Source: Atopobium deltae
Lineage (GTDB): Bacteria > Actinomycetota > Coriobacteriia > Coriobacteriales > Atopobiaceae
Length of the DNA: 64,000 bases
Reading direction: 5' to 3'
NCBI RefSeq assembly: GCF_001552785.1
Contig: NZ_KQ959492.1
Location: forward strand, 1-64,000
Position numbers and translations under genes: made by a program. The notes below the pieces were generated by a model, which saw only the letters and a program-made list of their open reading frames with translations, made no database searches and had not been told where the DNA came from. This document shows, one piece after another, positions 4,093 to 62,690 of this stretch. How positions within the stretch are numbered: position 1 is the stretch's first letter; each line of letters opens with the position of its first letter.

Positions 4093-4097
4093 GAACC

Positions 4098-5240: not shown

Positions 5241-5267
5241 GAGTCCTCCTTGTTTTGGGCACATACG

Positions 5268-5295
5268 CTCATGGGCTCATGACTCATGGGCTCAT
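5268..5295. repeat. 13-base direct repeat upstream of ftsZ
   Basis: CTCATGGGCTCAT occurs at 5268-5280 and again at 5283-5295, separated by GA. It lies about 30 bases upstream of the ftsZ start in the presumed leader. It may be a regulator-binding site or a slippage duplication; the sequence does not decide. Confidence 0.6.
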
Positions 5296-5503
5296 CGCGC
5301 ATACACTCGCATTAAAGACTTACTAACAAGCTTTCCTACAATTTTCACTTACCAGCTTTACCAACAACCTTAAAGCTCAACTTAAACTAAAAGCTAGAGG
5401 TAAAGCGCGTAATCTTTTCATACTGGCTCGTACATTGCAAGCTTTTTGTGTAAACGGTGAAAAATGCAGGTCAGGCGCTGTGTTAGATTTGAGATAACCC
5501 TAA

Positions 5504-5533
5504 AGTATACCCTGAGAGTTTAAGCTGCTGGAA
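5504..5533 (-). promoter_or_regulatory. Candidate ftsZ promoter
   Basis: Minus-strand -10 TATACT (5504-5509) with a weak -35 TTCCAG (5528-5533) at 18-base spacing. The -10 is close to consensus and the -35 is poor. The transcript would have a leader of about 255 bases before ftsZ. Confidence 0.35.
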
Positions 5534-5575
5534 GGCGAGAAGGCCATGGAGAGAGACTAGAGGGTCGCTCGAATG

Positions 5576-6835
5576 TTAAGCGCTGGGTTTATTGGCAGGC
5601 TTATCAGTAGGCTTTTTGGGATCAGCGGGTTTGTCGGCAGACTTGTTGGTGGGTTTGTCGCCAGCTTGGTTGTCGCCAGGCGGATTACCAGCAGGATTAC
5701 CATTAGCAGGATTACCATTAGCAGGATTTCCACCAACCACGCGACCGCCCGTGCCAGGATCGACTGACTCGGCACCAACCTTGCGGTAGCTCGGACGAGA
5801 AGGAACACGCACGTTGATGAAGGTAATTTGATTGGGATGCTGCTCGATCAACTGCTTAATGGTCGCTTCTTTTGTCGTGATATCGTGCGCTGCGCCGAGT
5901 GATACCTCAATGCCATTGGAAAGCACGCAGGATACTGACTCACTACTGGCAGCAGCATACGACACTATGGTCTTCGAGAAGTCCTTGCTAAAGCCTTTTA
6001 CGTAACGCAACACTTCCAAAACACTCGGGTCGGTCGTCTTGGTCGCAGCCTGCGGATTGACAGATGCAGGCACCTGCCACACAAACAAGCATCCAACCTT
6101 CGTAGCCTGCGCTAAAGCAATGTCGTATGCCGACTGCTCTTTGGAAGCAGCAATTTTGCAAGGTTCAATCCACGTGCCATCTTGGCCTATGTACCAAGCA
6201 ATATCGCCAGAATTCATCAGCACAAGGGCAGCAGGCGTGCGCTCTTTTACCTCGATACGCAGCTTATTTGGAAACACGCGTGTGATACGCACTTCTTCGG
6301 CCCAGGGATTGCGCTTAATGTTGTTGGCAATGGTATCGATAGAAGCATTGAGCAGCGTGACCCCTGCGGGAATGTTCGCGAGCTTAGCAATAACTTCGCT
6401 GGTCATATGCGACGTTTTAGGCGCATCGATCGACTCAATGCGAAAAATTGGCACATGCATGAGCAGTACAAACAAAAGTCCACCTACCGCAGCAATGCCT
6501 ATGAAGCCGAGCAGGATCTTTTTAAGGGAAATCGAAAAGACTGGCAGGTGCATGCGCGATCCGCGGCTCGCTTTGGCTGACGTGCTTGCAGACGATATAC
6601 CGCGCGACTGCTGCTGCGCTCGCTCGCTGCCAGCTTGCGATGAGGCCGCTGCCAAAGCCTGCAAACGTTGGCGCAGCGATTGACGTGCCTCAAGACGTGC
6701 AGGACTCGCTCCTTGCTTTTTGAGGTGCTTGAGGAGTTTCTTCTCGTCACGCGCGTTCGAAGAACGCGAGCTTGCAGAGGCAGAAGCCGAGGTGCGCTTC
6801 GTGGGCTTGAGCTTTTTGTGGTCCGAATGTGCCAT
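5576..6835 (-). CDS. ftsQ: Cell division protein FtsQ/DivIB
   Basis: 419 residues from the ATG at 6833-6835, just after the murC stop. A basic Ser/Ala-rich cytoplasmic segment (1-120) is followed by one membrane helix (KKILLGFIGIAAVGGLLFVL) and a POTRA domain (IDAPKTSHMTSEVIAKLANI onward, VFPNKLRIEVKER). FtsQ links FtsL/FtsB and the septal synthases of the divisome. The C-terminus is unusual: about 50 residues of Asn/Pro/Lys/Asp repeats (NGNPA units, then DKPADPKKPTDKPANKP). A longer in-frame ORF overlaps murC and was not used. Confidence 0.9.
   Translation of the reverse strand: MAHSDHKKLKPTKRTSASASASSRSSNARDEKKLLKHLKKQGASPARLEARQSLRQRLQALAAASSQAGSERAQQQSRGISSASTSAKASRGSRMHLPVFSISLKKILLGFIGIAAVGGLLFVLLMHVPIFRIESIDAPKTSHMTSEVIAKLANIPAGVTLLNASIDTIANNIKRNPWAEEVRITRVFPNKLRIEVKERTPAALVLMNSGDIAWYIGQDGTWIEPCKIAASKEQSAYDIALAQATKVGCLFVWQVPASVNPQAATKTTDPSVLEVLRYVKGFSKDFSKTIVSYAAASSESVSCVLSNGIEVSLGAAHDITTKEATIKQLIEQHPNQITFINVRVPSRPSYRKVGAESVDPGTGGRVVGGNPANGNPANGNPAGNPPGDNQAGDKPTNKSADKPADPKKPTDKPANKPSA
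5691..5735. repeat. 15-base tandem repeat in the ftsQ 3' end
   Basis: GCAGGATTACCATTA is repeated perfectly at 5691-5705 and 5706-5720, with partial copies on both sides. It encodes the NGNPA repeats of the FtsQ tail and is a likely site of strand-slippage length change. Confidence 0.8.
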
Positions 6836-6848
6836 GTCAACCGATACC

Positions 6849-8516
6849 TTAGACGGTCGCACCCTTGGAAGCGTTTGCATCCTTAGTAGCACAGACGCCC
6901 TTCTCGGCAAAGACAGTGTTGGCAGAAGTGGCGGTCAAACGCTCTTGCATCGCCTCAATAAAATCGGGTCCTAGGATCGTAATGTCGCCCGCACCCTGTG
7001 TGATCAGCAGGTCACCAGGCTTGCATACTTCGCAGAGCTTATCGAGAAGCCCATGGTGAATGGGGATAAACGACACGTCGTCGACATGGCCGTACTGCTT
7101 CACCGCCTCGACGATGGTCTTGCCCGAAATACCAGGGATGGGCATCTCGCCAGCGGCAAACACATCGGTCACAAAGAGCACGTCAGCATCGTCAAAGGCA
7201 CTTCCGAACTGGCGCGCGAGCGCTTGCGTGCGAGAATAGCGGTGCGGCTGGAAGCACGTCACGATGCGCTTGAAGTGCAGCGATTTAGCAGCAGCAAGCG
7301 TTGCTTCGATCTCGGTGGGGTGATGTCCATAGTCGTCCACAACCGTGATGCCGCCTACTTCGCCCACGTGGGTAAAGCGGCGATGTGCGCCTTTGAACTG
7401 CGACAGCGCGGCGGCTGCCTTATGCACGTCAAGACCCAAAACGTCGGCCGTTGCAATGACGGCAGTGGCGTTGGAAATGTTGTGTCGACCAGGATTTGCC
7501 GATAAGACCACGTTAACCTGCTCGCCTGAGGACATCGTAATGGTCATGCGGTTGTTGATGGCGTCACGATGTTCGTCGAAGTTGATGTCGGTAGGGTCAG
7601 CGGAGGATGCGGTAGCGGTGGAAACGGCATTGGCGCTGGTTCCCACGGTGTCAACGCTGGTAGCACAGGCAACGCCCACAGGCTCGGCTTGTAGTTCTCG
7701 GCAGACGTAATCGCAGGAATCGTTAAAGCCATAGGTCACTACACGGCGACCCGTGGAATGCGCAAGGTCAACCAGGTGCTTCGAGTCGCCGTTAATCACA
7801 ATGCAGCCAGCGTCGCCCACCAGATCCATAAATTTGCAGAAGGTCTTCTCGACATTCGCGAGATTGCCGTAATGATCGAGGTGGTCGGCCTCAATGTTGG
7901 TCACTACTGCAATGGATGGCGTGAGGTACAAAAACGAACCGTCGGACTCGTCGGCCTCGCAAACGAAGTAGCCACCCTTGCCGTCGCGGCCGTTGGTGCC
8001 GTACTCCTCGACGATGCCGCCGATAAGAAACGCGGGGTCGCAGCCCATGTGATCGAGCATAGAAGAGATCATCGACGAGGTAGTCGTCTTGCCGTGGGTG
8101 CCTGCAACAGCAATTTCTTCTCGGCCACGACCGAGGGCAGCGAGCATTTTTGCGCGGGGCCAGACTTCACAACCGAGCTCTCGGGCGCGGATAAGTTCGG
8201 GATTGCTCTCGGGGATGGCGCTCGAGATGACCACAACATCGGGTTTGATGGCGTCGATGTGCTTGGCCTCGTGACCGATAAACACCTCAATGCCAGCTTC
8301 GACAACTTCGCGCACGTAGTGGGACTGCTTGAGGTCAGATCCACTGACGGACACGCCACGCTGGTGCAACACGAGTGCGATGCCACTCATGCCTGCACCG
8401 CCAATACCGATGAAGTGCGCTTTTGAGCACGGAAACGAGGTGGCGGCTGCGCTGGGCGCTACAGCCGTGGGTACTGTTGAAGTTGCGGACGTGACATTTG
8501 ACGGTGTATTTGACAT
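6849..8516 (-). CDS. murC: UDP-N-acetylmuramate-L-alanine ligase
   Basis: 555 residues. It adds L-Ala to UDP-MurNAc. Visible motifs are the N-terminal nucleotide-sugar fold HFIGIGGAGMSG (about 34-45), the Mur-ligase P-loop GTHGKTTT (139-146), NIEADHLDHYG, and DDYGHHPTEIEATL in the C-terminal domain. Unusual features are a 30-residue Ser/Thr/Ala N-terminal extension and a Ser/Thr/Ala-rich insertion at about 276-318 in the central domain. It is separated by 159 bases from murG. murB, which often follows murC, is absent. Confidence 0.96.
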   Translation of the reverse strand: MSNTPSNVTSATSTVPTAVAPSAAATSFPCSKAHFIGIGGAGMSGIALVLHQRGVSVSGSDLKQSHYVREVVEAGIEVFIGHEAKHIDAIKPDVVVISSAIPESNPELIRARELGCEVWPRAKMLAALGRGREEIAVAGTHGKTTTSSMISSMLDHMGCDPAFLIGGIVEEYGTNGRDGKGGYFVCEADESDGSFLYLTPSIAVVTNIEADHLDHYGNLANVEKTFCKFMDLVGDAGCIVINGDSKHLVDLAHSTGRRVVTYGFNDSCDYVCRELQAEPVGVACATSVDTVGTSANAVSTATASSADPTDINFDEHRDAINNRMTITMSSGEQVNVVLSANPGRHNISNATAVIATADVLGLDVHKAAAALSQFKGAHRRFTHVGEVGGITVVDDYGHHPTEIEATLAAAKSLHFKRIVTCFQPHRYSRTQALARQFGSAFDDADVLFVTDVFAAGEMPIPGISGKTIVEAVKQYGHVDDVSFIPIHHGLLDKLCEVCKPGDLLITQGAGDITILGPDFIEAMQERLTATSANTVFAEKGVCATKDANASKGATV

Positions 8517-8675
8517 ATAGGTCTCTCCTCAAAATTCTCGAAGTATAAGCGCTAAGAACGGACTCGCCGAACGCGTGGTTGTAGACGTGCGGTCTTATCG
8601 CCAGCGGACGCTCATGCTTCGCATACGCTACAACTCTACCCTATCTTGCGGCGTTTCGTGCGCGTTTTGCTCGTT

Positions 8676-10037
8676 TTAGTGCGCCTTATATACGCTTTCC
8701 ACTTCATCCGCAAGTTGCGCGGCGGCGCTTGACGAACGCAGGCTTGCGGCGGCATGGCGCATGTCGGCCAGGCGCTTTTCGTTGTGCAAAAGCGAGAAGA
8801 GCTCCTGCGCGAAAAGCGGAAAATCAAGCTGGTCATCGGGAAAAAGCAGAGCGGCACCGCAGTCGACCAGGCGCTGTGCATTGGTCGTCTGGTGATCGGC
8901 CGTTGCAAAGGGATAAGGCACCAAAATAGCAGGGACGCACAAGGCCGAGATCTCGGCAATGGACGAGGCACCAGCACGAGAAATAATCAAGTCGGCAGCG
9001 GCGAGCACATCGCCCATATTGGCAATGTAAGGCAGCAAACGATAGCGCTTCTTCTCCTCATCGGTAAGCTGAAGCGCTTCGACAGTCTTGTCGAAATCGG
9101 CAGCGCCCGTCGAATGAATGACGTAGAGGTTTTTGGATCCCAGGATGGCATCTTTGAGTGTGGCGATAGTGGCGTTTACGTGCTGCGCTCCAAGGCTTCC
9201 GCCCACAACGGCAAGCAGTTGCGCGTCGGCAGGAATGTCGAGCTTTTTGCGCGCCTCGTCGCGAGTGGCATTGATAACCGACTTGCGCACGGGGTTGCCT
9301 GTGAGCACGATGCAAGAAGAAGCGGTGGAGGTTACGGGGACGCTAGAGGGGGCGCTGGATTCGACGTTGGCGGTGGACTCCACTCCAGCGTCAGACTCGA
9401 CGGCGTCGTTGGTTTTCTCGCCAAGGATATGCGCAAAGGCTTGCTGCGCGGCAGGAAATGCCACACAAATTCGCGCAGCTTGACGGGCAGAAATTTTGTT
9501 TGCGAGGCCGATTACCGAATTTTGCTCGTGCAGCAGGTACGGAACATTGTTCGCGTGACACCAGCGCACGAGCGGGAGCTCCACGTACGCACCGAAGCCG
9601 ACGGCTGCATCGGGAGCCTGATGCTCGCTAAAGTACTGCTGCAAATATTTTTGTGCCTTATACATGTTCCACAGCGCGATGGGCAGCGTCCAGGGGCGGC
9701 TGCGATCAAAACCAGTCAGGCGCAGGGCCACAAAATCGTAGCCCGCTTCGGGGACAAGCTTTGCTTCGAGACGGTTGGGCTGGCCATAAAACGAAACCTT
9801 ATGCCCGCGCTGTAGGAGCTCTTCGGCGAGCGCGAGTGCAGGGTTCACGTGACCAGCGGTTCCTCCTGCCGCAATGGCAATGTGCAGGGGTTTTTGCGGG
9901 GCTTGCTGGCTAGTTTCGGGTTGCTGCGGGGTTTCAGCGAGTGGCTGCCCCTGCGAGGTTTCAGCGCCTTGCTGCTGTTTTGTTTCGGTCTGCTGTTTTG
10001 TTTCGTTTTGCTGTTTTGTTTCGTTTTGCTGTGACAT
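8676..10037 (-). CDS. murG: Undecaprenyl-PP-MurNAc-pentapeptide GlcNAc transferase
   Basis: 453 residues. GT28 glycosyltransferase that makes lipid II at the inner membrane face. The donor/acceptor motifs IAAGGTAGHVNPALALAEEL, LLHEQNSVIGLANK, GGSLGAQHVN and the C-terminal SRAGASSIAEI followed by PYPFATADHQTTNA are all present. The first 50 residues are a Gln/Glu/Thr-rich extension built from NETKQQ-like units, encoded by an 18-base tandem repeat, and a 35-residue Ser/Val/Glu insertion precedes the second domain. Five bases after ftsW. Confidence 0.96.
   Translation of the reverse strand: MSQQNETKQQNETKQQTETKQQQGAETSQGQPLAETPQQPETSQQAPQKPLHIAIAAGGTAGHVNPALALAEELLQRGHKVSFYGQPNRLEAKLVPEAGYDFVALRLTGFDRSRPWTLPIALWNMYKAQKYLQQYFSEHQAPDAAVGFGAYVELPLVRWCHANNVPYLLHEQNSVIGLANKISARQAARICVAFPAAQQAFAHILGEKTNDAVESDAGVESTANVESSAPSSVPVTSTASSCIVLTGNPVRKSVINATRDEARKKLDIPADAQLLAVVGGSLGAQHVNATIATLKDAILGSKNLYVIHSTGAADFDKTVEALQLTDEEKKRYRLLPYIANMGDVLAAADLIISRAGASSIAEISALCVPAILVPYPFATADHQTTNAQRLVDCGAALLFPDDQLDFPLFAQELFSLLHNEKRLADMRHAAASLRSSSAAAQLADEVESVYKAH
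9975..10028. repeat. 18-base tandem repeat at the murG 5' end
   Basis: Three consecutive copies of CTGTTTTGTTTCGTTTTG (the first diverged), at 9975-9992, 9993-10010 and 10011-10028. They encode the ETKQQN-type repeats right after the MurG start codon. The unit is a multiple of three, so copy-number change would keep the frame. Confidence 0.85.
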
Positions 10038-10042
10038 GCGCC

Positions 10043-11620
10043 TTACCTCCTGCGCAACGTAACGGTTGTTGCTTCATCGTGCGATGCACCTGAATTGTCG
10101 CGACGTTTTGTTTTGGCACCACGTTTGCCGCGGGCAGAAGAGCCTAATAAACTTGCGCGGGCTTCTCGCTTTTCGCGGTCGGAGCGTGCATCGCGATCCG
10201 AACGATCTTCTCGGCGAAGCACACGTACACCTTCGCGAGCGGCAAATGTCAAGGCAGTGGAATTCCCGCCACGCACTCCCCCAGCGGATGCGCTAGCAGG
10301 TCCTGCCTCCGCAAGCGAAAGCTGGCTGCGGCGGCGGTCAAACTCGGTTTCGGGCAGCACGCTTTGGCGCGAGACGGACAAAATCAGCCCCACGAGCACG
10401 AGCGTGCCCATGATGGACGAACCGCCGTACGAAATGAACGGCAACGCCTTGCCCGTCATGGGGATGAGCCCGACGATGCCCAGCATGTTGACGAACGCCT
10501 GGATCGCCAAGATAGTGGCCGAGCCCCATACAATAAACTTTCCCCGCAGGTCGGGGGCGTGACTGGCAATATGCAACGCGAACAAGATAAGCAAGAAATA
10601 TAGCGCGAGCAGACCGAGCGTTCCCACCATGCCAAGCTCTTCGCCGATAACCGCGTAGATAAAATCGTTGTGAGCCTCGGGCAAATAAAAATACTTCTGG
10701 TGTGAAAGCCCGATGCCGACACCCGTGAGCCCTCCGTTGCCGAAAGCGTAAAAGCCTTGCAGCAGCTGGTAACTAATGCCGTACGGATCCAACTCGGGGT
10801 TGAGCATCGCCAAAAAGCGCGAGCGAGAATAGCCGGTCGCAAGCGCCACAATCAGTATAAAGATAAGACCGACCACGGCGAGTCCGCCCAGAATACGCCC
10901 AGGAAAACCTGCATAATACGCCATACACATCAGGGTCACGAAAATGATGATCGTGGTTCCCTTATCGGGCTGGATGAAAATCAGCCCCAGCGGGATCACG
11001 ATGCCCAGCGTCGCTTTTATGGCTGCTTCGCGGGTATCCATGGTCTTCTCGACATAAAAGCGGTAGAGAAGTTCGGCAGCGATCAAAATAATGGCCGCTT
11101 TGATAAATTCGGACGGCTGGAAGCGAAACACGCCGAGCGAAATCCAACGCGCGGCACCCTTGGACGATGAGCCAGCTGCAACGGTAACCAGCAACAACAC
11201 GATGGACAGACCGGCCGCAATTTTTAGATTTTTGCAATAGAGGTGATAGTCGATGCGGCTAATTGCAAAGGCCAACACAGCTCCAACACAGGTAAACGCA
11301 AGTTGTCGATTAAAGAGCGCTGCGGCGTTTCCGCTGTTTTTGAGCGCTGTGACGGAACTTGCCGAGAAAACCATCAGCAAGCCAAACACGCACAGCGCAA
11401 ACACCGTCACGATAAAGTGCAGGCGCGGTTCCATAAAACGAGCAGGTACACCTGCGCTTATGCGTTGAAGCACTCCGTGGGGACGCTCTTTGCGCGTACT
11501 GCGCGCGGTGCGCGCAGCGTTGCGCGCGGTACCAGGTGCAGCACTGCGACGGTCATGGCCTCGATCAGCTATGCGAGTGTTTGGAGCGTGCGAATCTCGT
11601 GAAGCGCGCGGTGGTTTCAT
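10043..11620 (-). CDS. ftsW: SEDS-family lipid II polymerase FtsW
   Basis: 525 residues with about ten membrane helices. SEDS hallmarks: SSKGAARWISLGVFRFQPSE, QPDKGTT, the YQLLQGFYAFGNGGLTGVGI loop, LPEAHNDFIYAVIGEELG, and GLIPMTGKALPFISYGGSS. Septal glycan polymerase working with FtsI. A basic 60-residue N-terminal and a 110-residue Arg/Ala/Ser-rich C-terminal cytoplasmic extension make it longer than the usual 380-420. Its ATG overlaps the murD stop (ATGA), indicating translational coupling. Confidence 0.95.
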   Translation of the reverse strand: MKPPRASRDSHAPNTRIADRGHDRRSAAPGTARNAARTARSTRKERPHGVLQRISAGVPARFMEPRLHFIVTVFALCVFGLLMVFSASSVTALKNSGNAAALFNRQLAFTCVGAVLAFAISRIDYHLYCKNLKIAAGLSIVLLLVTVAAGSSSKGAARWISLGVFRFQPSEFIKAAIILIAAELLYRFYVEKTMDTREAAIKATLGIVIPLGLIFIQPDKGTTIIIFVTLMCMAYYAGFPGRILGGLAVVGLIFILIVALATGYSRSRFLAMLNPELDPYGISYQLLQGFYAFGNGGLTGVGIGLSHQKYFYLPEAHNDFIYAVIGEELGMVGTLGLLALYFLLILFALHIASHAPDLRGKFIVWGSATILAIQAFVNMLGIVGLIPMTGKALPFISYGGSSIMGTLVLVGLILSVSRQSVLPETEFDRRRSQLSLAEAGPASASAGGVRGGNSTALTFAAREGVRVLRREDRSDRDARSDREKREARASLLGSSARGKRGAKTKRRDNSGASHDEATTVTLRRR

Positions 11621-13365
11621 GAGCTTTTCTCACACTCCTTTGGATTATTATCGGTAGTTTTATCGGGGCTGGTGGTCTCGGAATCGGAATTGGCAGCGTG
11701 GTTCAGATGCTGGTTTACATGCTGCATAACCAGCTGCTTAAACACACGTCCGCGCTCTTCATAGCCGCTAAATTCATCAAAGGAAGAGCATGCTGGCGAT
11801 AAGAGCACGTAATCACCCTTGTGTGCAAGCGCTATTGCCTGCTGCAGCGCGTCGGCCAGATGCTTAGCGTGCTCGATGCGCAAGCGCGGATCATCTGTTT
11901 GACGCTGGTCTTGCTGTGATGTCTGATTCTGGCCCGAAACTTGTGTCTGCTCCTGATACGTGGATAGCGCTTCACTCAAACGAGATGCCGCTTCACCAAA
12001 ACAAACCACGGCCTTACAACTTTCCAACACAGCTTGATTAAACTCAGTCAATTCCGTGTGCTTGTCGTGGCCTCCTGCCAGCAAAATAACTTTTCCCTTG
12101 GGAAACGCTGTCAGTGCTTTGACCACAGCATCAGTGTTGGTTGCCTTAGAATCATTGATGTAGTGAATGCCTGCTGCATCGGTTGCCACAGGCTCGATGC
12201 GATGCTCAAGGGGCGAGAAACTCCGCAGCGTTTGGCAGATCGACTCAACAGAAAGCCCCAGATCAAGTGCACAAGCACAGGCTGCTAACACATTTTGTAT
12301 ATTATGCGTCCCCTTCAGCGTGAGCTCATCGACTCCAAGCAGCGCATACAGCTTGGCATCCAATCGCACATACAAGGTCTTCTCGGCGACAAAAGCCGCA
12401 CACGGTGTATGTGGATCAGCGGCCGTATCGCAGATGCAAACACGCAGTCCCCGTTTATGCAGGCGTTCAACAATGGGCGTTAGATTACTGTCGGAAGAAA
12501 TGACTGCCAAATCACCTGCATCAAGCTGCGCAAAGATGCGTTCTTTGGCAGCAACATAATTTTGCAAGGTTTTGTGCCACGACAGATGATCGGGCGTGAT
12601 GTTCAGCAAAATGGCCACGCGAGGATGCAAGTGCTGCGTCTCGGCAAGTTGAAAACTCGAAAGCTCAGCCACAAACCACTCGTCGGCGGGGCGCTTTGCC
12701 ACGTTTGCAATACTCAGGGTGCCAATATTACCCACCGCTTTGGCGAGAAGACCCGCCTGCTGCAAGAGCGCCGCAATGAGCGTGGTCGTCGTTGTTTTGC
12801 CATTGGTTCCCGTAATACCAATCCACTTGTCAGGGCTTTGGCGCCACGCAAATTCAGGCTCGCCAATCATGGTTTTCGAGCACGAAGCTGCTGTCTGATA
12901 AAAGCGACTAAACGGCGGAATGCCAGGAGAGGTAATCGTAAGGTTATACGCAGCAACGTTGGCTGGCGCTTTCACCTCATCGGTTCCCAACACGAGTCGA
13001 ACACCAGCATCAGCAAGGTTTTGCAAAGGATCGTCGGCGGGTTGCTGCTGTTGTTGGGATTCATGCGTATGAGCTTCATGCACCTGGGCTTCATGCGTCT
13101 GGGGTTCACGCGCATGAGCGCCACTCTGAGTACCACCATACATGGTGATAGATCGAACAGTCCCGCGGGGCAAATCTAACAAATACTGAGCAACGGCCAC
13201 ACCTGTTTTGCCGACGCCCAAAATGCAGACATCGCCGAGGGTCTTCTCGTCCACGGTCTTCTCGTCCGCGACCGCTGCGGAAATGCACTTCTCCCCCACG
13301 CTCGCAGCACCAACGGTCTTCTCGTCCGCACGTTGTTCATTCACATTTTGCCTTGTCATACCCAT
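11617..13365 (-). CDS. murD: UDP-MurNAc-L-alanine:D-glutamate ligase
   Basis: 582 residues; adds D-Glu to UDP-MurNAc-L-Ala. The P-loop GTNGKTTT is at about 186-193, with NITPDHLSWHKT and HRIEPVATDAAGIHYINDSK further on. Typical MurD is about 450 residues; here a 44-residue N-terminal extension carries three ADEKT/VDEKT units encoded by copies of the dispersed 10-base motif, a His/Glu/Gln-rich insertion sits at about 83-108, and a Gln/Thr loop and a polar tail occur near the C-terminus. Overlaps ftsW by four bases. ATG 13365 or 13359 are both possible. Confidence 0.94.
   Translation of the reverse strand: MGMTRQNVNEQRADEKTVGAASVGEKCISAAVADEKTVDEKTLGDVCILGVGKTGVAVAQYLLDLPRGTVRSITMYGGTQSGAHAREPQTHEAQVHEAHTHESQQQQQPADDPLQNLADAGVRLVLGTDEVKAPANVAAYNLTITSPGIPPFSRFYQTAASCSKTMIGEPEFAWRQSPDKWIGITGTNGKTTTTTLIAALLQQAGLLAKAVGNIGTLSIANVAKRPADEWFVAELSSFQLAETQHLHPRVAILLNITPDHLSWHKTLQNYVAAKERIFAQLDAGDLAVISSDSNLTPIVERLHKRGLRVCICDTAADPHTPCAAFVAEKTLYVRLDAKLYALLGVDELTLKGTHNIQNVLAACACALDLGLSVESICQTLRSFSPLEHRIEPVATDAAGIHYINDSKATNTDAVVKALTAFPKGKVILLAGGHDKHTELTEFNQAVLESCKAVVCFGEAASRLSEALSTYQEQTQVSGQNQTSQQDQRQTDDPRLRIEHAKHLADALQQAIALAHKGDYVLLSPACSSFDEFSGYEERGRVFKQLVMQHVNQHLNHAANSDSETTSPDKTTDNNPKECEKSS
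13240..13324. repeat. Three copies of the dispersed motif GGTCTTCTCG
   Basis: Perfect copies at 13240-13249, 13255-13264 and 13315-13324, all in the same orientation, within the codons for the MurD N-terminal extension. This is the densest group of the dispersed motif in the window. Confidence 0.9.
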
Positions 13366-13383
13366 CGCTTGCTCGCGCCTGCC

Positions 13384-14415
13384 TTAGTTCAGTTGGAAAT
13401 ACAGCGCAAAGCCAAGGGCCGCAAACGCAGCCGAGATAATCCAAAAACGAATAACGACCTTCGTTTCGCCCCAACCGAGCTTTTCGAAATGATGATGAAT
13501 GGGCGCCATCAAAAAGACACGCTTCTTGGTGAGTTTAAAACTCGCCACCTGGATGATGACCGAAAGGGCTTCACACACAAAAAGACCGCCCATGACTAGC
13601 GAAATTACTTCAGCCTTGGTCAAAACGGCAAGCGCAGCAAAAGCGGTACCAAATGCCAGCGAGCCCGTATCACCCATAAAAATGGACGCGGGATAGCAGT
13701 TGAACCACAAAAATCCAACCAAAGCGCCCGCAATCGATGCAGCAAAAATAGCTAAATTGCCGTCGCCATAAATAAACGAAACGGCTGCCATCATGCACAT
13801 GACCACACACACGGTTCCACCCGACAAACCGTCAAGGCCGTCGGTCAGATTCACGGCGTTAGACATCCCCGCCATCAGGATAAACACAAACAGGACGTAG
13901 AACCATGGGACGCGCACGACGGTCGCGCCCACGGGAACGACGGTAGTCAAAAAGCCAAGGTCCAGATCAATGCCGACTGGAAAATGCAAGGTTGGTGTCA
14001 CACCCGCACAATTCACAGCGAGAAGGGCAAACGCGACCGAAATCAAAAACAGGCCGATCATTTTTTGCGATGGGGTTAAGCCTAGCGAGCGGCCATGCAT
14101 AACCGATTCAATATCGTCCGCAATGCCGAGAAAGGCCGTGGCAAGGGTGGCCCCCATACAAATGCTCAGCGATATCGACCAACGCGCCATGCAAATACAG
14201 GTAACAACCAACCCCAATAAAATCACAACGCCGCCCATCGTAGGGGTACCCTGCTTAATAAGGTGGCGCTGCGGTCCGTCCGCACGAATCTGCTGGCCAA
14301 CGCCCTCGTGGCGCATGAGCGTAATGAAGAGAGGCATAACCGCCAACACAATGATGGCCGCAAGTCCCATGGACAAAAATATCTGATAGCTCGGATAGCT
14401 TGGAGAACCAAACAC
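13384..14415 (-). CDS. mraY: Phospho-MurNAc-pentapeptide translocase
   Basis: 343 residues, ten predicted membrane helices. Transfers phospho-MurNAc-pentapeptide to undecaprenyl phosphate, giving lipid I. Conserved cytoplasmic motifs: GTPTMGG, FLGIADDIE with the catalytic aspartates, NAVNLTDGLDGL, FMGDTGSLAFG and MAPIHHHFEKLGWGE. Normal length with no insertion, unlike its soluble neighbours. It starts at the base next to the murF stop. Confidence 0.97.
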   Translation of the reverse strand: MFGSPSYPSYQIFLSMGLAAIIVLAVMPLFITLMRHEGVGQQIRADGPQRHLIKQGTPTMGGVVILLGLVVTCICMARWSISLSICMGATLATAFLGIADDIESVMHGRSLGLTPSQKMIGLFLISVAFALLAVNCAGVTPTLHFPVGIDLDLGFLTTVVPVGATVVRVPWFYVLFVFILMAGMSNAVNLTDGLDGLSGGTVCVVMCMMAAVSFIYGDGNLAIFAASIAGALVGFLWFNCYPASIFMGDTGSLAFGTAFAALAVLTKAEVISLVMGGLFVCEALSVIIQVASFKLTKKRVFLMAPIHHHFEKLGWGETKVVIRFWIISAAFAALGFALYFQLN

Positions 14416-15933
14416 TTATTCGAGCACCCCCTTTACGAACAAATCCAACGCGCTGGATCGCGATGCCTTTGCTAATACTACGTCATCTTTCGTCAGGATG
14501 GGCTTGATGGCGTGCAGGGCCTCGTCCACCGTTTTGAAGATCTCGATCTTATCGTCCGAAAAACCCATCACAAGTGCTACTTGTCGCATACCTTCCACAT
14601 AGGTCGCTCCGATAAGAACGAGCATGTCAAGAGGCTTCGCGGCCGCATAGGCACCCACTAAATCGTGGAGACGCGCGGCTTGGGAGCCCATCTCGCCCAT
14701 CTCGCCCAACACGGCAATGCGTCGTCCCTCACAATGCAAACTACACAAAACATCAAGGGCTGCTGCCATGGACGTTGGACTCGCGTTGTAACTATCGTCA
14801 ATCATACGTGGTTTGTCACCGCCACCCACAAGCTCCAAACGCATATGCGTCTGAGGCATCTGTTGTATAGCTTCAATGCTTGCTTGACGGTTTATACCAA
14901 GTGAATCTGCCACCGAAAGTGCAAGTAAAAAGTCACTTAAGAGATGTTTTCCAGGGATGGGTAAGGTTGCAGGAATATGCATGCCATCGGGATAGCAAAC
15001 CTCGCACGAAACAAAACCTTCAGGGTTAACTTGAACGTTAGAAGCATGCAGCTGCGCGGACGCGGTCGTGACATCGCTGGCGTCGACCGCGAGCTTAAAA
15101 CCAGCAGCTTTGGTGCTGTCAATAGCAATATCATGACCGCCAACAAATGTGACAGCTATCCCAGCCTTCTGTGCAAAATTCGTTGCAATAAAGTCAGAAA
15201 AATCGTCTACAGCCCACAAGTGTAAAGAAGGTTCAAGTTGCATACCCTCAAGGGAGGCTTGATCCATGCCATCCACGATTTCTGCTTTTGCACGTGCGAT
15301 GTTTTCTCTCGAACCCAACAGGCCAATGTGGCTGGTACCGATGTTGGTAATCAAAGCACAGCACGGACGAGCAACCTCGGACAGTCGATGTATCTCACCA
15401 GGATGGTTCATGCCCATCTCGGCAACAACAACCTGCGCGTCATCGGGGGTTGTTAGAAGGGTCAATGGTAAGCCAATAAGATTGTTGAAGTTGCCCTTGG
15501 TTGCATGGGTAACATAAGCGGCCGAGCATGCTGCAGCAAGCATATCCTTTGTGGTGGTTTTGCCAACCGAACCCGTAACGCCCAGCACGCACCACTGCGG
15601 ATGCTTTTTGCGCCACGCTGCTGCGAGACGTAGCAAAAACTCTTGCCCATCGTCATCCTGTGCACGAACAAGCGCACATCCTGCGGCGTTTGCCTGCTGG
15701 ACAAGCGCTTCTTCGGGCGTGCGCGTGACTACAACACACGCCGCTCCCGCCTCAATAGCACGCCCAGCATAGTTGTTGCCATCAACACGCTCACCCTGAA
15801 AGGCCACAAAAAGCCCTTCAGGAGTCACCGTCCTCGAATCAATGCTTGGTTGTTTTGCAACGGTATTCGGATCACCACACAGCTGAGTCGCACCCGTTGC
15901 TTCACATATAAGACCCACTTCTAACGCAAGCAT
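14416..15933 (-). CDS. murF: UDP-MurNAc-tripeptide D-alanyl-D-alanine ligase
   Basis: 505 residues. Adds D-Ala-D-Ala to the UDP-MurNAc-tripeptide. Motifs: SIDSRTVTPEGLFVAFQGER at the N-terminal uridine-binding domain, P-loop GVTGSVGKTTTKDML, NHPGEIHRLSEVARP, and DDSYNASPTSM in the third domain. It directly follows ftsI; murE, which lies between ftsI and murF in most dcw clusters, is missing, so the tripeptide ligase must be encoded elsewhere. Confidence 0.96.
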   Translation of the reverse strand: MLALEVGLICEATGATQLCGDPNTVAKQPSIDSRTVTPEGLFVAFQGERVDGNNYAGRAIEAGAACVVVTRTPEEALVQQANAAGCALVRAQDDDGQEFLLRLAAAWRKKHPQWCVLGVTGSVGKTTTKDMLAAACSAAYVTHATKGNFNNLIGLPLTLLTTPDDAQVVVAEMGMNHPGEIHRLSEVARPCCALITNIGTSHIGLLGSRENIARAKAEIVDGMDQASLEGMQLEPSLHLWAVDDFSDFIATNFAQKAGIAVTFVGGHDIAIDSTKAAGFKLAVDASDVTTASAQLHASNVQVNPEGFVSCEVCYPDGMHIPATLPIPGKHLLSDFLLALSVADSLGINRQASIEAIQQMPQTHMRLELVGGGDKPRMIDDSYNASPTSMAAALDVLCSLHCEGRRIAVLGEMGEMGSQAARLHDLVGAYAAAKPLDMLVLIGATYVEGMRQVALVMGFSDDKIEIFKTVDEALHAIKPILTKDDVVLAKASRSSALDLFVKGVLE

Positions 15934-15945
15934 CTACGTGCCCTC

Positions 15946-17712
15946 CTACTTTTGCGCCACAGGCTGAATGCCCATATCGCTCAATGCTTCACTCATAATT
16001 GACGAGAAGACCGGCGCAGCCGAAGAAGCTGCCAAATAGCTCGTGCCGTTCAAACCAACATACACCATCACCGATGGATTGGAAGCGTTGGCAAAACCGA
16101 TGAGCGAACTCAAATACGATGAGTTCTTGTAGCCTCCTGACGTAGCCTGCTGACCCGTACCAGTTTTACCAGCCACTTCAAAACCATCGACATGAGCGGC
16201 TTTGCCCGTGCCCTTCTCGACAACTAATTGCATCATTTTGGTCATTTGAGCTGCAGTTTCTTCGGACATCACACGCGTATTTGAACCCGACCAGTCAACC
16301 TTTTGGCCATTTTTCGAAATCAAAAAGTGCGGCGTCGTCATCACACCCTTGTTGGCAACCGAGCTCGCTGCGCGCATCATTTGCACCATGGGCACAGCCG
16401 TGGCCTGACCAAAGGACATAGCGCCTACGCGTGTGTCGTTGTAATCGGAATCCTTCGGGACCAGTCCCGCGACCTCGCCTGGAAAATCGATGCCCGTCTT
16501 TGAACCAATGCCAAACTTTTTGACGCCCTGCATAAAAGTTTCGTTGCCAATCTTGCGACCCACGAGTACCGAACCCGTATTGGACGAACGGCGCAAAATT
16601 TCCGACACCGACATATCCATCGTGTAGCTGCGACGATCGTCGTCACGAACATTATCGGAACCAACTTTAACGCTTGGTGGTACCGAGAAGACCGTGTCGG
16701 GTGTGACTACGCCCTTCTCGAGCGCCATAGACATCGTCATAATCTTGAAGATTGAACCTGGCTCATAGGCGCTGGCCACCATCTTAAAGTTGAGCGCCTC
16801 TTGCACCTTATCGTTGGGAGTTTGCGGCTGCAACAACGGCGTAGAGCAGGCAGCGAGGATCTCGCCCGATTTGGGGTCAGACACCATAACCATGCCTGAC
16901 TCTGCTGTATATTTTTCCACCGCTTCGGTGATTTTTTGCTCGGCGACCTGCTGAATGTTGACGTCAAGCGACAGAACAATATCCTGCCCGTTTTTGGCTT
17001 CCTCGATCGTGGAGGCGCCGCCCGCAATGGGCACACCGTCGGCTCCGACCGCCATGGTCATGCGCCCATCGGTTCCCGATAAGATCTTGTCGTAATACAG
17101 CTCAAGACCCGTTTTACCTTTGCCATCGTTGCCCACGATTCCCAAAATCTGTGCAGCTACAGCGCCATAGGGATACACACGCTTCATATCACTCAGATAA
17201 TAAATGCCCGTGAGCTTCTCTTTGCGCAGCGCGGCTTTGAGCTTCGTAGCTACGGGATTATCGACCTTTTTTTGCACGTAGGCAAAGGTCGTTTTCTTTT
17301 GTAGGGTTGGTTTGTAGTCTTCGGGTGTTCCGCCGAGAAACTCAGCTAAAAGTTTGGCGGTTTTATCGACATCTGCCACCTCTTTGGGGTTAGCGTAGAT
17401 CGTTTTGCACTCTTCACTGGTCGCTAGCACGTTACCGTTGCGATCGTAGATGGTGCCGCGCTTGGCGTGTAACACGAGTCGATTGGTGTGATTAGATGCG
17501 GCTTTAGCGCTCAGGCGTGGACCATCAATGACCTGGAGCCACACAAGACGCAGAGCAATGATGAGCAGTACACCCAAAAAAATCGCGCCCATGCGCAAAA
17601 AGCGCGTTTGAGCATCAGCAACCACGCATTCTTGTCGAGCGTCGCGGGTGGTCTCGTCATACGAAGAGCCGCGAACGCGGCTCTTAAAGTTCTGTCGATC
17701 TAAGCGTTTCAC
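15946..17712 (-). CDS. ftsI: Septal transpeptidase FtsI (class B PBP)
   Basis: 588 residues. One N-terminal membrane helix (about 40-60), a PBP dimerisation domain (GTIYDRNGNVLATS), and a transpeptidase domain with active-site motifs PGSIFKIM (SxxK), RRSSNTG (SxN) and KTGTGQ (KTG). It crosslinks septal peptidoglycan with FtsW. No PASTA domains are seen. It follows ftsL by 18 bases. The N-terminus contains a basic cytoplasmic segment of about 35 residues. Confidence 0.95.
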   Translation of the reverse strand: MKRLDRQNFKSRVRGSSYDETTRDARQECVVADAQTRFLRMGAIFLGVLLIIALRLVWLQVIDGPRLSAKAASNHTNRLVLHAKRGTIYDRNGNVLATSEECKTIYANPKEVADVDKTAKLLAEFLGGTPEDYKPTLQKKTTFAYVQKKVDNPVATKLKAALRKEKLTGIYYLSDMKRVYPYGAVAAQILGIVGNDGKGKTGLELYYDKILSGTDGRMTMAVGADGVPIAGGASTIEEAKNGQDIVLSLDVNIQQVAEQKITEAVEKYTAESGMVMVSDPKSGEILAACSTPLLQPQTPNDKVQEALNFKMVASAYEPGSIFKIMTMSMALEKGVVTPDTVFSVPPSVKVGSDNVRDDDRRSYTMDMSVSEILRRSSNTGSVLVGRKIGNETFMQGVKKFGIGSKTGIDFPGEVAGLVPKDSDYNDTRVGAMSFGQATAVPMVQMMRAASSVANKGVMTTPHFLISKNGQKVDWSGSNTRVMSEETAAQMTKMMQLVVEKGTGKAAHVDGFEVAGKTGTGQQATSGGYKNSSYLSSLIGFANASNPSVMVYVGLNGTSYLAASSAAPVFSSIMSEALSDMGIQPVAQK

Positions 17713-17730
17713 GGCTGTAATTGTACCGTA

Positions 17731-18402
17731 CTATTTACGGCCTGTGTTACGCAATGTGTTGTTGGCGCGTGCAGAAGTTGTGGGGACCGTGGTTGCCTTG
17801 GCAGACTTGGCGGACTTTGCGGACTTTGCAGAAGACTGTTCGGCGCCCTTATCGCCAGCTTTTGCGGACTGCGCGGTCTTCTCGTCAGCGGCGGTCTTCT
17901 CGACCTTAGCGTCAGCTTTGCCGGCCTTATCGGCGGGCGCCTCAATAGCTTTGTCAGTATCGCCCATCGAAGCGGTAAAGGTCTGCGTGGCGCCAGCACC
18001 CAAGGTAATGACCTCGGTCGAGGCAGCGCGAAGCATGCCATAATTTTGCGTGGCAATGCGCGTAATGCGCGCGCTATTCGAAAGCGCGGAGGTCGTCGCC
18101 TTAAGGTCGCGGGTCAAGCCCTGCGCCACCTTGATTTCGCCACGCATTTGCTGGGTGGTACGAAGCATGGAGGCAGTTGCAGCATACAGGCTAATGCGAA
18201 TGCAACCAACCACTGCGATCACGGCAACAATGCTTATAGCCATACGAATGCGTGTCAAGAACTGCGGGGAAACCGTTTTGCGGACGGAAGCATCAAGACC
18301 ACGACCCTCGACAACCTCAAAGGCACGACGAGTTTGCTGTTGTTCAAGCTGTCTTGCCTGCTGCAACTCAAGACTGCGCGCTTGTGATGCCAAGTAAGCC
18401 AT
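17731..18402 (-). CDS. ftsL: FtsL-like divisome protein with a long tail
   Basis: 223 residues. A cytoplasmic Gln/Arg-rich segment (1-60), a single membrane helix (about 72-95, MAISIVAVIAVVGCIRISLY), then a periplasmic helical stretch with the FtsL-type pattern up to about 140. FtsL recognition rests on topology, size of the core and position between rsmH and ftsI, because FtsL sequences are poorly conserved. The last 80 residues are Ala/Lys-rich low complexity (SAKSAKSAKS) and contain VEKT and DEKT units encoded by the dispersed motif. Confidence 0.8.
   Translation of the reverse strand: MAYLASQARSLELQQARQLEQQQTRRAFEVVEGRGLDASVRKTVSPQFLTRIRMAISIVAVIAVVGCIRISLYAATASMLRTTQQMRGEIKVAQGLTRDLKATTSALSNSARITRIATQNYGMLRAASTEVITLGAGATQTFTASMGDTDKAIEAPADKAGKADAKVEKTAADEKTAQSAKAGDKGAEQSSAKSAKSAKSAKATTVPTTSARANNTLRNTGRK
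17843..17932. repeat. Cluster of dispersed-motif copies in ftsL
   Basis: Four same-orientation copies within 90 bases: two perfect GGTCTTCTCG (17875-17884 and 17893-17902) flanked by two CTTATCG cores. They encode part of the Ala/Lys/Glu tail of FtsL. Confidence 0.85.
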
Positions 18403-18493
18403 AGTATTCGATGCTCCCTTATGCGTAGCCGCTTACGCTTGTAGTACGTTTAAAGTGCGTTTAAAGTGCGTTATTGCTGTATGTTTGCTGCGT

Positions 18494-19456
18494 TTATTGC
18501 GAAGCAAAAAGCTTTGTCGCCACACGCAGTTTGGCGCTTCGAGCACGGGGATTGGAAGCAATCTCTTCAGTCGACGCGACGAGTGGCTTTTTTGTTTTAA
18601 CCTGCAGTATCGGCTGTTGTCCACAAACACACACGGGTATATCGACGGGACAAATACACCCACTCGAAAGCTGCGTAAAGATATGCTTAACCAGGCGATC
18701 TTCCAGCGAGTGATAACTTATCACGCAAATCCGTCCGCCCTCATTGGCCCAACGGATAGCCGCTTCAAGACCCTGCTTGAGCATATCCAGCTCATGGTTG
18801 ACCTCAATGCGCAACGCCTGAAAGCTCTTACGCGCGGGGTGTCCCCCATGACGGCGCGCTGCAGCAGGAATTGCTGCTTTAATGATGTCAACAAGCTCGA
18901 GCGTTGTAGCAATCGGCGCCTGTTTGCGACGGCGCACAATCCCACGCGCAATGCGCGAAGCGAAGGTCTCGTCCCCATAGACGCGAAGAATCCGAGTGAG
19001 GTCTGCTTCGTTATAGGTGTTTATGACCTCGGCGGCGGTTAAGGTGTTATTCCTCGGATCCATTCTCATGTCAAGAGGAGCATTCTCGTGGTACGAAAAG
19101 CCCCTCGCAGGGATATCGAGTTGCGGAGAAGAAACTCCCAAATCGAAGAGAAAACCATCGACTCCAGCAACGTGTGAATCAAGCAGAAGTTTGTCAAGAT
19201 CCCCAAAGTTACCTTTGAGGAAGCGATGATTCACGCCAGGAAGCTCTTGTTCAAAACGAGCGCTCGCAGCGGCCAAGGCCATATCATCTTGATCAATACC
19301 AATCGATAAGCCCGTGAAGCCGAGTGATTTTGCCAACGCAACGCTATGACCAGCGCCACCCAAGGTGCAATCGCAAACGACGTCACCCTCCTGAGGATCT
19401 AATGCATCAAGCACTTGCTTGAGCATAACGGGTACATGCCGATATGCTGCTGTCAA
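18494..19456 (-). CDS. rsmH: 16S rRNA m4C1402 methyltransferase RsmH
   Basis: 320 residues. SAM-binding motif DVVCDCTLGGAGHS (about 26-39), the family motifs FDLGVSSPQLDIPARGFSY and PLDMRMD, RSFQALRIEVNHEL-like KSFQALRIEVN, and VISYHSLEDRLVK. It methylates N4 of C1402 in the ribosomal P site. It is the second gene of the division operon, 11 bases after mraZ, the standard arrangement. A Cys-containing insertion GCICPVDIPVCVCG, common in Gram-positive RsmH, is present near the C-terminus. Confidence 0.97.
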   Translation of the reverse strand: MTAAYRHVPVMLKQVLDALDPQEGDVVCDCTLGGAGHSVALAKSLGFTGLSIGIDQDDMALAAASARFEQELPGVNHRFLKGNFGDLDKLLLDSHVAGVDGFLFDLGVSSPQLDIPARGFSYHENAPLDMRMDPRNNTLTAAEVINTYNEADLTRILRVYGDETFASRIARGIVRRRKQAPIATTLELVDIIKAAIPAAARRHGGHPARKSFQALRIEVNHELDMLKQGLEAAIRWANEGGRICVISYHSLEDRLVKHIFTQLSSGCICPVDIPVCVCGQQPILQVKTKKPLVASTEEIASNPRARSAKLRVATKLFASQ

Positions 19457-19467
19457 AACGGTCCTCC

Positions 19468-19902
19468 CTACTCACCAAAGAGCAGTGAGTCAACATCGTC
19501 GTCCAAATAAGAAGCCTGAAGCTCTTCCCACTTGGAGGCTGCAAAGATTTCAAAATGATCGACATTGCCGACGATTTCGACTTCGCGACCGAGTCCGAAC
19601 TTCTCGCGAAGTTTGTCCGAAATCTTGCTTAAGGCAATACGACCAGCGCTGTCAATATCAACCGTGGTGGTCAATGCCGAAAGCTTACGGCGGCGAGCAT
19701 CTTGCACTTTATCCAGAGGATTAAAACCATCGGGGAAAAAGCTCTGCATCCATTTTTGATGTTCTTCGGGAGTAAACCCACACAAAGCACCATGAAAAGG
19801 CACCAAGCAGACCTTCTCGCCAAATTGACGACGAAATTCCGCAGGTAAGGTAAGACGTAACTTGGCGTCTAGGTTGCGATTATAGTGGTCGGTCAAGTAC
19901 AT
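19468..19902 (-). CDS. mraZ: Transcriptional regulator MraZ
   Basis: 144 residues with two SpoVT/AbrB-like repeats. The first contains DAKLRLTLPAEFRRQF, the second DSAGRIALSKISDKL followed by EVEIVGNVDHFEIF. MraZ represses its own dcw operon by binding short direct repeats upstream. A strong AGGAGG lies seven bases before the ATG, and a promoter with candidate MraZ boxes lies just upstream (19960-20004). Confidence 0.96.
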   Translation of the reverse strand: MYLTDHYNRNLDAKLRLTLPAEFRRQFGEKVCLVPFHGALCGFTPEEHQKWMQSFFPDGFNPLDKVQDARRRKLSALTTTVDIDSAGRIALSKISDKLREKFGLGREVEIVGNVDHFEIFAASKWEELQASYLDDDVDSLLFGE

Positions 19903-19959
19903 CTTACCCTCCTTTCGTTATGCGTCTGCTATGGAGTACTATCCATGTTGCATATGACC

Positions 19960-19988
19960 ACTATACGGTTTTTCGCGACATTTCTCAA
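19960..19988 (-). promoter_or_regulatory. Promoter of the mraZ division operon
   Basis: Minus-strand -35 TTGAGA (19983-19988), exactly 17 bases, then -10 TATAGT (19960-19965). Transcription would start near 19953, giving a 50-base leader before mraZ. This is the best sigma-70-type promoter seen in the window. Confidence 0.75.
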
Positions 19989-20004
19989 CACTTTGACACA
20001 CTTT
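19985..20004 (-). promoter_or_regulatory. Candidate MraZ operator (two AAAGTG boxes)
   Basis: On the minus strand AAAGTGTGTC and AAAGTGTTGA form two direct repeats with a 10-base period, overlapping the -35 of the mraZ promoter. Published MraZ sites in Mollicutes are AAAGTG direct repeats at the same spacing, whereas E. coli boxes differ (TGGG). Autorepression by steric block of the promoter is inferred. Confidence 0.6.
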
Positions 20005-60494: not shown

Positions 60495-61346
60495 ATGATT
60501 TCTCGTAGAAGTTTAGTTGCAGGCCTCAGCGCTGTTCTTATCGCCAGTTCCTTGGGCGGTCTTGCAGGCTGCGCAAAGGCGCCCGAAAAAACAGCTGGCG
60601 GCTCCGCTGCAGGCGAAACGCAAAAGCTTGTGATTGCAGCAAGCCCTTCTCCCCATGCAAAAATTCTGAATGATTTTGCCAAGGAAAAACTTGCAAAAAA
60701 GGGCATTGAGCTGGTCGTTAAGGAGTACACCGACTACATTATTCCCAACAAGGTTACGAGCTCGGGTGAGGTCGACGTGAACTACTTCCAGCATCTCAAC
60801 TATTTGAATAACTACAGCAACGAAAACAAAACCGACCTGGTGGCCGTCGCTCCGATTCACTACGAGCCCTTCGGCATTTACGCTGGTAAATCAAAGGATC
60901 TTTCTAAGATTTCCGAAGGTGCGCAAATTGCTTTGCCCAACGATCCCACCAATGAGGGTCGCGCGCTTCTGCTTTTGCAGCAGGCAAAACTCATTACGCT
61001 GAAGGACCCCAATAACTACAAGGCAACCGTCAATGACATTGCCGAAAATCCCAAGAAAATCAAGTTCGTTGAGGTCGAGGCTGCAGCGGTCCCCCGTCAG
61101 CTGCAGGACGTGGACTTTGCCGTTATTAATGGTAACTACGCTATTGAAGCTGGTTTGCACGTTTCGGACGCACTGACCATCGAGACATCTGATGGTGCGG
61201 CCGTTAAGCAGTACGCTAACTATTTGGTCACTACTCCCAAGAACAAAGATGATAAGTGCGTTAAGGCTTTGGTTGAGGTATTGACCTCCAAGGAGTTTAA
61301 GGACTATCTGACCAAGACTTTTAATAAGGACGTTTTACCTGCTTAA
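60495..61346 (+). CDS. metQ: Methionine-binding lipoprotein
   Basis: 283 residues; ATG after TTTGGAG. Lipoprotein signal peptide with lipobox LAGC (about residue 24), then a NlpA/MetQ fold (KLVIAASPSPHAKILNDFAK, GEVDVNYFQHLNYLNNY, IALPNDPTNEGRALLLLQ, AVINGNYAIEAGL). It delivers methionine to MetNI. 98 bases after metI, a gap that holds two motif copies (one overlapping the metI end). Terminated by the hairpin at 61426. Confidence 0.95.
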   Translation: MISRRSLVAGLSAVLIASSLGGLAGCAKAPEKTAGGSAAGETQKLVIAASPSPHAKILNDFAKEKLAKKGIELVVKEYTDYIIPNKVTSSGEVDVNYFQHLNYLNNYSNENKTDLVAVAPIHYEPFGIYAGKSKDLSKISEGAQIALPNDPTNEGRALLLLQQAKLITLKDPNNYKATVNDIAENPKKIKFVEVEAAAVPRQLQDVDFAVINGNYAIEAGLHVSDALTIETSDGAAVKQYANYLVTTPKNKDDKCVKALVEVLTSKEFKDYLTKTFNKDVLPA

Positions 61347-61425
61347 GACCTGCGACTATAGCTCAGACGCCTACGTCAGGCATCTACACAAGCAGCTTTT
61401 TTGAAAACTCATCGGATACACTAAC

Positions 61426-61464
61426 CGCCCCTCATGTTCAGCTCGAACGAGGGGCAGTTTTCTT
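61426..61464 (+). terminator. Terminator of metNIQ
   Basis: Stem GCCCCTC (61427-61433) with GAGGGGC (61449-61455) extended by an inner GTTC/GAAC pair, followed by AGTTTTCTTT. Strong plus-strand terminator about 80 bases after metQ. Confidence 0.85.
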
Positions 61465-62036
61465 TACTGATTGCTTACTACTTCTAAAATGTCTTCAACC
61501 TTATCAGAAATTCCAAATGTATCGGCGTACCTTCGAAGCCTCCAAACATCCTTAGTATTCTTTTTTAGGTAAAAATTCCATGCCTTTGCAAATATTTCTG
61601 GATCTTGGTTTTTGCGTTTTGTACCGTCGCTTTTATCCTTTGTTGCATTGATTTTGTCAATTGCTGTTTGCTTGTCGGCTTGCGGCAGATGCGGCAGCGC
61701 TTGGATTTTTGCGATCGCTTTTTGGCGCGGGCGTGCAGGCCCTTTGCAACAATGAAGTAACATAGGTTCTGATCGAGCTTCTTCTCGCTGTCGTCTTTGA
61801 AGACCGCAGAGATTGAGTTATCGTCGTTAATCCTCACATGACTAAAGTTCGTACTTTGGGTAATTTTTTAAACAGCGCGATGACCTGCTTTTTTCTTCAT
61901 CTGTTACGCTATTTTCATTCCCTACGCTCACTTTTTCTTTTGGGACTTTAAAAAGTTTCTTAAACGATGGCGGGGCGTGCGGAACTTGATGTCGAGGTAA
62001 CTCAAAGTGGAATACTGCCTGCTTGAAACAAAGCAC
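61464..62036 (-). pseudogene. Broken gene of unknown family (frame-shifted remnant)
   Basis: Three successive minus-strand reading frames follow one another: 61842-62036 (begins MLCFKQAVFHFELP), 61565-61837 (INDDNSISAVFKDDSEKKLD) and 61464-61763 (DPEIFAKAWNFYLKKNTKDV, RRYADTFGISDKVEDILEVV). Read in order they make one plausible charged, soluble protein interrupted by two frame changes. No stretch alone has a good start site. The family is not recognised. The 3' frame looks like a helical tail. Sequencing error cannot be excluded. Confidence 0.4.
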
Positions 62037-62079
62037 TGCCTTCTCGTTAGTAACTTAAAGCGAGAAGGGCAGTTTTACT
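62036..62079 (+). terminator. Hairpin built from an inverted pair of the dispersed motif
   Basis: CTGCCTTCTCG (62036-62046) pairs with CGAGAAGGGCAG (62061-62072, one bulge) around a 14-base loop, followed by TTTTACTT on the plus strand. The arms contain CTTCTCG and CGAGAAG exactly. On the minus strand the T tract is weaker (TGCTTTGTTT), but it lies just after the 62124 gene and may end it. Confidence 0.7.
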
Positions 62080-62123
62080 TACTCAGACGTGTGGAAAATC
62101 ATCAATATGGAGACGGTGCAGGG

Positions 62124-62690
62124 CTACAGCAACAAATTTGCTGAAATGGCCTTGCTTTCAGGCACATATTCAAACGTTTTACCATCTTCTTGTAACAACC
62201 AGACCGAACCGCCCTGATGGTTTGCTTCCATGTAAGCGGTATGAAGAATCGCAAACTTCTTCTGCTTTGCATCGTACAAAATATAGATGTTAGGATCATC
62301 GGTGGCTTCATAGCGACCATGCACCACAGGCTCTTTATCCTTATTGCCAAGTGTCCCTAGCCCCCATCTGCCCTTATCCTTATCCTTTGAAGGTTTTTTA
62401 GAACCCATGGATGGACCGTCAGGCTCAAACGTGAGATAGGTAGGCGCTTCAGAACCATAAGGGTATTCTATAGCGCCATCTGAACGTTTGATCGTGCGAA
62501 TCTTATAGCTACCTTGAATGTTATAGCCTTGTGTTACAACTTTTTGCACCGTTCCTTGAGAGTTTCGCACAAAGAAAAAGATAACACCACAAAGAACGAG
62601 AATGATCAATGCCATCAATGCAAAAAAAACTGGATGACTCTTCACCAATGAAGAAGCTTGAACTTGATTTTCGTAAGTTTTAGTCGTCAT
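62124..62690 (-). CDS. Hypothetical protein with one membrane helix
   Basis: 188 residues, not recognised. Short polar N-terminus (1-20), one membrane helix (about 22-45, FFALMALIILVLCGVIFFFV), then an extracytoplasmic beta-rich part with SYKIRTIKRSDGAIEYPYGS, a Lys/Asp-rich linker (KKPSKDKDKGRW) and YILYDAKQKKFAILH. The layout resembles small exported proteins of lipocalin-like strand content. Codon use is AT-richer than in the main clusters. Confidence 0.65.
   Translation of the reverse strand: MTTKTYENQVQASSLVKSHPVFFALMALIILVLCGVIFFFVRNSQGTVQKVVTQGYNIQGSYKIRTIKRSDGAIEYPYGSEAPTYLTFEPDGPSMGSKKPSKDKDKGRWGLGTLGNKDKEPVVHGRYEATDDPNIYILYDAKQKKFAILHTAYMEANHQGGSVWLLQEDGKTFEYVPESKAISANLLL

Follow-up and report, generated by a model that had tools for sequence, protein, structure and literature searches.

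Inverted pairs of DNA uptake sequences, the DUS of Neisseria and the USS of Haemophilus, commonly serve as transcription terminators, an arrangement that is frequent in the known systems but does not define an uptake sequence. The descriptions of uptake sequences that we found concern only the Neisseriaceae and Pasteurellaceae (for example, PMC7811141), and about 55% of the terminators in Neisseria and 17-29% of those in Pasteurellaceae carry one, the pairs being numerous and concentrated between genes, with 3 of the 231 USS hairpins of N. meningitidis lying inside genes (PMC1852404). We found no description of uptake sequences in Coriobacteriia or Actinobacteria in the openly accessible literature. 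Here, we analyzed a hairpin located near the end of the window (the whole stretch of DNA studied, 64,000 nucleotides) in which, as in the terminators of the two known groups, the stem is built from two inverted copies of an abundant dispersed word. Whereas such pairs are many in Neisseria and Pasteurellaceae, ours is a single instance, occurring at chance frequency.

The CTTCTCG and CGAGAAG arms, separated by exactly 14 nt, lie where the earlier note had placed them (Table 1), in a stem that is longer than the motif: the motif arms form its upper part and pairing extends beyond them (ACTGCCTTCTCG / CGAGAAGGGCAGT) with the single bulged G, the paired arms being ACTGCC-TTCTCG / CGAGAA-GGGCAGT. 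On the + strand, the minimum free energy is -18.8 kcal/mol (z -4.05), and 0 shuffles were equally stable; the - strand folds as well (-19 kcal/mol), with a tail after the stem (GCTTTGTTT) that is weaker than the one on the + strand. The hairpin was picked up independently by our terminator census, and a stricter terminator scanner, allowing loops of up to 8 nt, did not report it. It resembles intrinsic terminators in its stable stem of 12 or more pairs, its T-rich tail and its site just past a gene end, and differs from Rho-independent terminators in that the loop is rather long (10-14 nt), the stem carries one bulge and the T tail is interrupted.

Table 1. Coordinates of the hairpin, of its neighbors in the window and of the other loci considered.
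Feature	Position	Strand	Description
Stem-loop	62035..62073	+	12-14 bp stem, one bulged G, loop 10-14 nt; from sequence, fold and terminator census
Motif copy CTTCTCG, left arm	62040..62046	+	TGCCTTCTCG; without the preferred G at -3
Motif copy CTTCTCG, right arm (reads CGAGAAG on +)	62061..62067	-	full GNNCTTCTCG: GCCCTTCTCG
T-rich tail TTTTACTT	62073..62080	+	would serve + strand termination; from sequence
Gene for 188-aa membrane-anchored protein, family not assigned	62124..62690	-	convergent; stop ~50 bp from hairpin
MetQ/NlpA-type lipoprotein gene	60495..61346	+	PF03180, E 2.5e-82; nearest + strand gene upstream of hairpin
Lipoprotein gene's own terminator, motif-free	61423..61459	+	AACCGCCCCTC...GAGGGGCAGTT, then TTCTTT
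comEA (SLBB + HHH) next to comEC	L031:8023-10501 (G000:C25)
Tad/Flp pilus locus	L232:4962-10410 (G000:C5)		Flp-type pilin, TadA-type ATPase, TadZ-like ATPase, RcpC/CpaB
Phage-like contig	L225 (G000:C24:1-17615)		integrase, primase, RusA, RecE- and Sak4-like genes
Resistance island	L226 (G000:C5:175001-195000), about 3200-20000		mef-like, Msr-like ABC-F, Tet(M/W)-type genes

Given this anatomy (stem and T tail) and the position past a gene end, it is very probable that the feature is an ordinary hairpin of the Rho-independent terminator type and that the motif copies came to lie in its stem by chance placement. The terminator with a T tract suggested in the earlier note appears likely, in view of the fold, the tail, the position and the census. 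Lying 3' of the convergent gene, the hairpin would act as an intrinsic terminator, with RNA polymerase pausing on the T tract and the transcript being freed by the stem. Part of the stem is supplied, at the rate of random placement, by two occurrences of a motif that is very common in the genome; this motif, GNNCTTMTCGNCA, is itself a separate and real DNA-level dispersed word. Termination probably could proceed in both directions, the + strand having the better T tail.

The protein encoded by the convergent gene yielded 0 Pfam matches, and its relatives, all of them weak, occur in 4 of the 60 other genomes of the family, so that an alignment assessing conservation of the hairpin was not possible. 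The lipoprotein gene on the other side ends ~690 bp from the hairpin. Between the two, positions 61464-61837 of the - strand likely represent a degraded gene remnant with a weak match to the GA module.

The earlier note further held that the hairpin is independent support for an uptake-type role, a claim that depends on how inverted motif pairs are distributed. We searched the whole 1.447-Mb genome for the pattern CTTMTCG, 3-30 nt, CGAKAAG, and called genes with a home-made open reading frame caller in ~431 kb, the sampled stretches and the window together covering all 25 inward pairs; the terminator criteria were simple. Within 30 nt, there are 25 inward, 26 outward and 110 same-strand pairs genome-wide, compared to ~35, ~35 and ~70, respectively, under random placement, as estimated from motif density (1660 copies of CTTCTCG, with CTTATCG scaled by its ratio in the sample). 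The inverted arrangement is not above chance. As many as 22 of the 25 inward pairs reside inside coding sequences, one is the hairpin in question and two are in gene-less stretches that may be coding. By chance, ~0.9 inward pairs should fall between genes in our sample, which comprises 66 kb of intergenic DNA, and hence ~3 in the genome as a whole, which contains one clear case and two doubtful ones. The check that the earlier note had proposed, a search for inverted pairs within 30 bases concentrated downstream of genes, accordingly gave no enrichment. The same-strand pairs are about twice as numerous as the inward and outward pairs combined (51); many of them encode Ala-Glu-Lys-rich stretches, and Glu-Lys dipeptides occur at 1.5 times expectation.

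Terminators provide a second view of the same question. Among 91 intergenic motif copies, 6 fall within terminator-like hairpins, compared to the 7.4 that the fraction of intergenic DNA occupied by such hairpins would predict; conversely, the motif is present in 4 of 182 terminator-like hairpins, and the hairpin analyzed here is the only one with the motif in both arms. Two relatives show a similar picture, with 2 copies versus 2.0 expected and 6 versus 3.9. In a separate count restricted to hairpins directly after gene ends, 1 of 51 terminators bears the motif, and nearly all other terminators, including that of the lipoprotein gene, are motif-free. The scenario in which inverted pairs of an uptake motif have been recruited as terminators, in the manner of Neisseria and Haemophilus, with our hairpin being one of many, can point to one convincing example here and one in a relative; nevertheless, we regard it as very improbable because inward pairs are not in excess of outward ones, nearly all of them are in coding sequences, and the single motif-bearing terminator among 51 is far from the proportions reported for Neisseria and Pasteurellaceae. 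The example in the relative (G015, L189:12721-12746) is a perfect bidirectional motif-pair hairpin with a T tail; no convincing terminator of this kind was seen beyond these two, and co-option of a motif pair may occur as a rare event. Thus, with inward pairs at chance level and mostly within genes, and the motif not favored in terminators, the hairpin lends no independent weight to an uptake role, contrary to what had been proposed.

Regardless of the hairpin, the motif is real: it is a dispersed word at the DNA level that varies among genera across a family of Coriobacteriales. The window contains 93 copies of CTTCTCG versus 8.0 expected and 120 copies of GNNCTTMTCG, and genome-wide the extended motif GNNCTTMTCGNCA occurs 731 times versus 12 for the reversed pattern. 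The density ranges from ~0.5 per kb for the 13-base form to 1.15 per kb for the 7-mer CTTCTCG, and the motif is denser in genes (2.11 per kb) than between them (1.41 per kb). The abundance could be ascribed to codon usage, that is, to Glu-Lys (C|GAG|AAG) and Asp-Lys (C|GAT|AAG) codon pairs, and the most frequent placement of the motif is, indeed, in this frame. However, synonymous-codon shuffles of the same sampled genes yield 8.3 copies of GNNCTTMTCGNCA versus 208 observed, a 25-fold excess that is seen on both strands and in nearly every frame. In an unbiased test against such shuffles, CTTCTCG (469 versus 112) and CTTATCG (294 versus 77) are the top over-represented 7-mers, whereas their one-base neighbors CTTGTCG and CTTTTCG show no excess. 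Moreover, the flanking preferences of the genic copies (-3 G, -1 T, +8 C and +9 A, numbered from 0 at the start of CTTMTCG) recur in the intergenic ones. Codon usage is thus scarcely credible as the cause, being ruled out by the synonymous shuffles and the intergenic flanks.

High copy number and asymmetry would also be compatible with a Chi-like recombination word or a chromosome-orienting word akin to KOPS or SRS. Chi words, too, are over-represented in genomes, and the SRS of B. subtilis (GAGAAGGG) resembles CGAGAAGNNC. KOPS, however, requires strong polarity, whereas the fraction of motif copies on the leading strand is 0.48, 0.46, 0.53 and 0.57 in four genomes, that is, near 50:50, and motif orientation tracks gene direction rather than replication, which makes a role of this kind improbable. 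The strand bias within the window (63 versus 30) is likewise due to gene direction, with 48 kb of genes on the - strand and 7 kb on the + strand. A replication polarity hinted at by the order of listed matches proved to be an artefact, and evenly spaced stretches show none.

The distribution of the motif among relatives and in acquired DNA is uneven. Many genera of the family carry it (for example, 444, 497 and 525 copies versus 8, 21 and 11 for the reversed pattern), and others are nearly devoid of it; three relatives (G018, G019 and G020) show no single dominant word. Judged by LepA, the closest genomes that bear a name are those of Olsenella sp. An285, an uncultured Atopobiaceae, an uncultured Coriobacteriaceae and a Collinsella (80-82%), which places the window in the Coriobacteriales and probably in the Atopobiaceae. 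Compared to 1.9 copies per kb in the chromosome, there are 4 copies of GNNCTTMTCG in 17.4 kb of the phage-like contig and none of the extended motif in the 16.8 kb of the resistance island, which also contains a short tyrosine-recombinase fragment and, at its edge, a gene for a type III restriction endonuclease. The motif is rare in recently acquired DNA, as judged from these two regions only, and any long-resident motif would behave likewise.

In Micrococcus luteus, comEA, comEC and Flp/Tad pili together serve transformation (PMC6370729). The genome analyzed here shares comEA, comEC and the Flp/Tad locus with that system at the level of gene content, and the sole ATPase of the T2SSE type above the cut-off is encoded in the latter locus. 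The open frame of its ComEC is short, spanning 549 aa, compared to about 800 aa in relatives, and the Competence domain is the sole domain recognized in it. The presence of comEC was considered as a predictor of the motif and failed, all well-assembled relatives having comEC. Given that relatives lacking the motif have comEC too, and that the uptake role is read from sequence, the motif might instead be a binding or modification site of another DNA-handling protein, such as a nucleoid protein or a methyltransferase, unrelated to uptake. This alternative appears rather unlikely, as the density of the motif, its variation from genus to genus and its absence from foreign DNA are a better fit to uptake sequences.

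The motif resembles the DUS of Neisseria and the USS of Haemophilus in most respects other than the pairing: roughly 0.5-1.2 copies per kb, constraint at the DNA level, presence both in and between genes, lack of replication polarity, scarcity in foreign DNA and differences between genera. By contrast, the host belongs to the Coriobacteriales, the motif is denser in genes than between them and is not co-opted for terminators, and it is known from sequence alone. It is the abundance, the flanks, the occurrence in many genera of the family, the lack of replication polarity and the scarcity in foreign DNA, not the hairpin, that keep the uptake idea alive. We tentatively propose, at slightly less than even odds, that GNNCTTMTCGNCA most likely serves as a tag by which a machine of Com proteins and the Tad pilus would recognize self-DNA for uptake. 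With comparable reserve, GNNCTTMTCGNCA might be considered an uptake sequence with genus-level dialects in a family of Coriobacteriales, probably the Atopobiaceae. It would then support sequence-specific natural transformation through that machine in an actinobacterial lineage, would have evolved independently of the uptake sequences of Neisseriaceae and Pasteurellaceae, and would lack their use in terminators.

The hairpin effectively serves as a negative control: an argument for uptake that looked tempting proves false and is removed, and it is the motif, rather than the hairpin, that deserves a study of its own on other evidence. Should the motif act in uptake, it would do so without the co-option for terminators that characterizes both known families. 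Such a role would be directly testable in cultured relatives, and, if uptake were proven in this gut-associated actinobacterial lineage, sequence-specific transformation would have arisen at least a third time.
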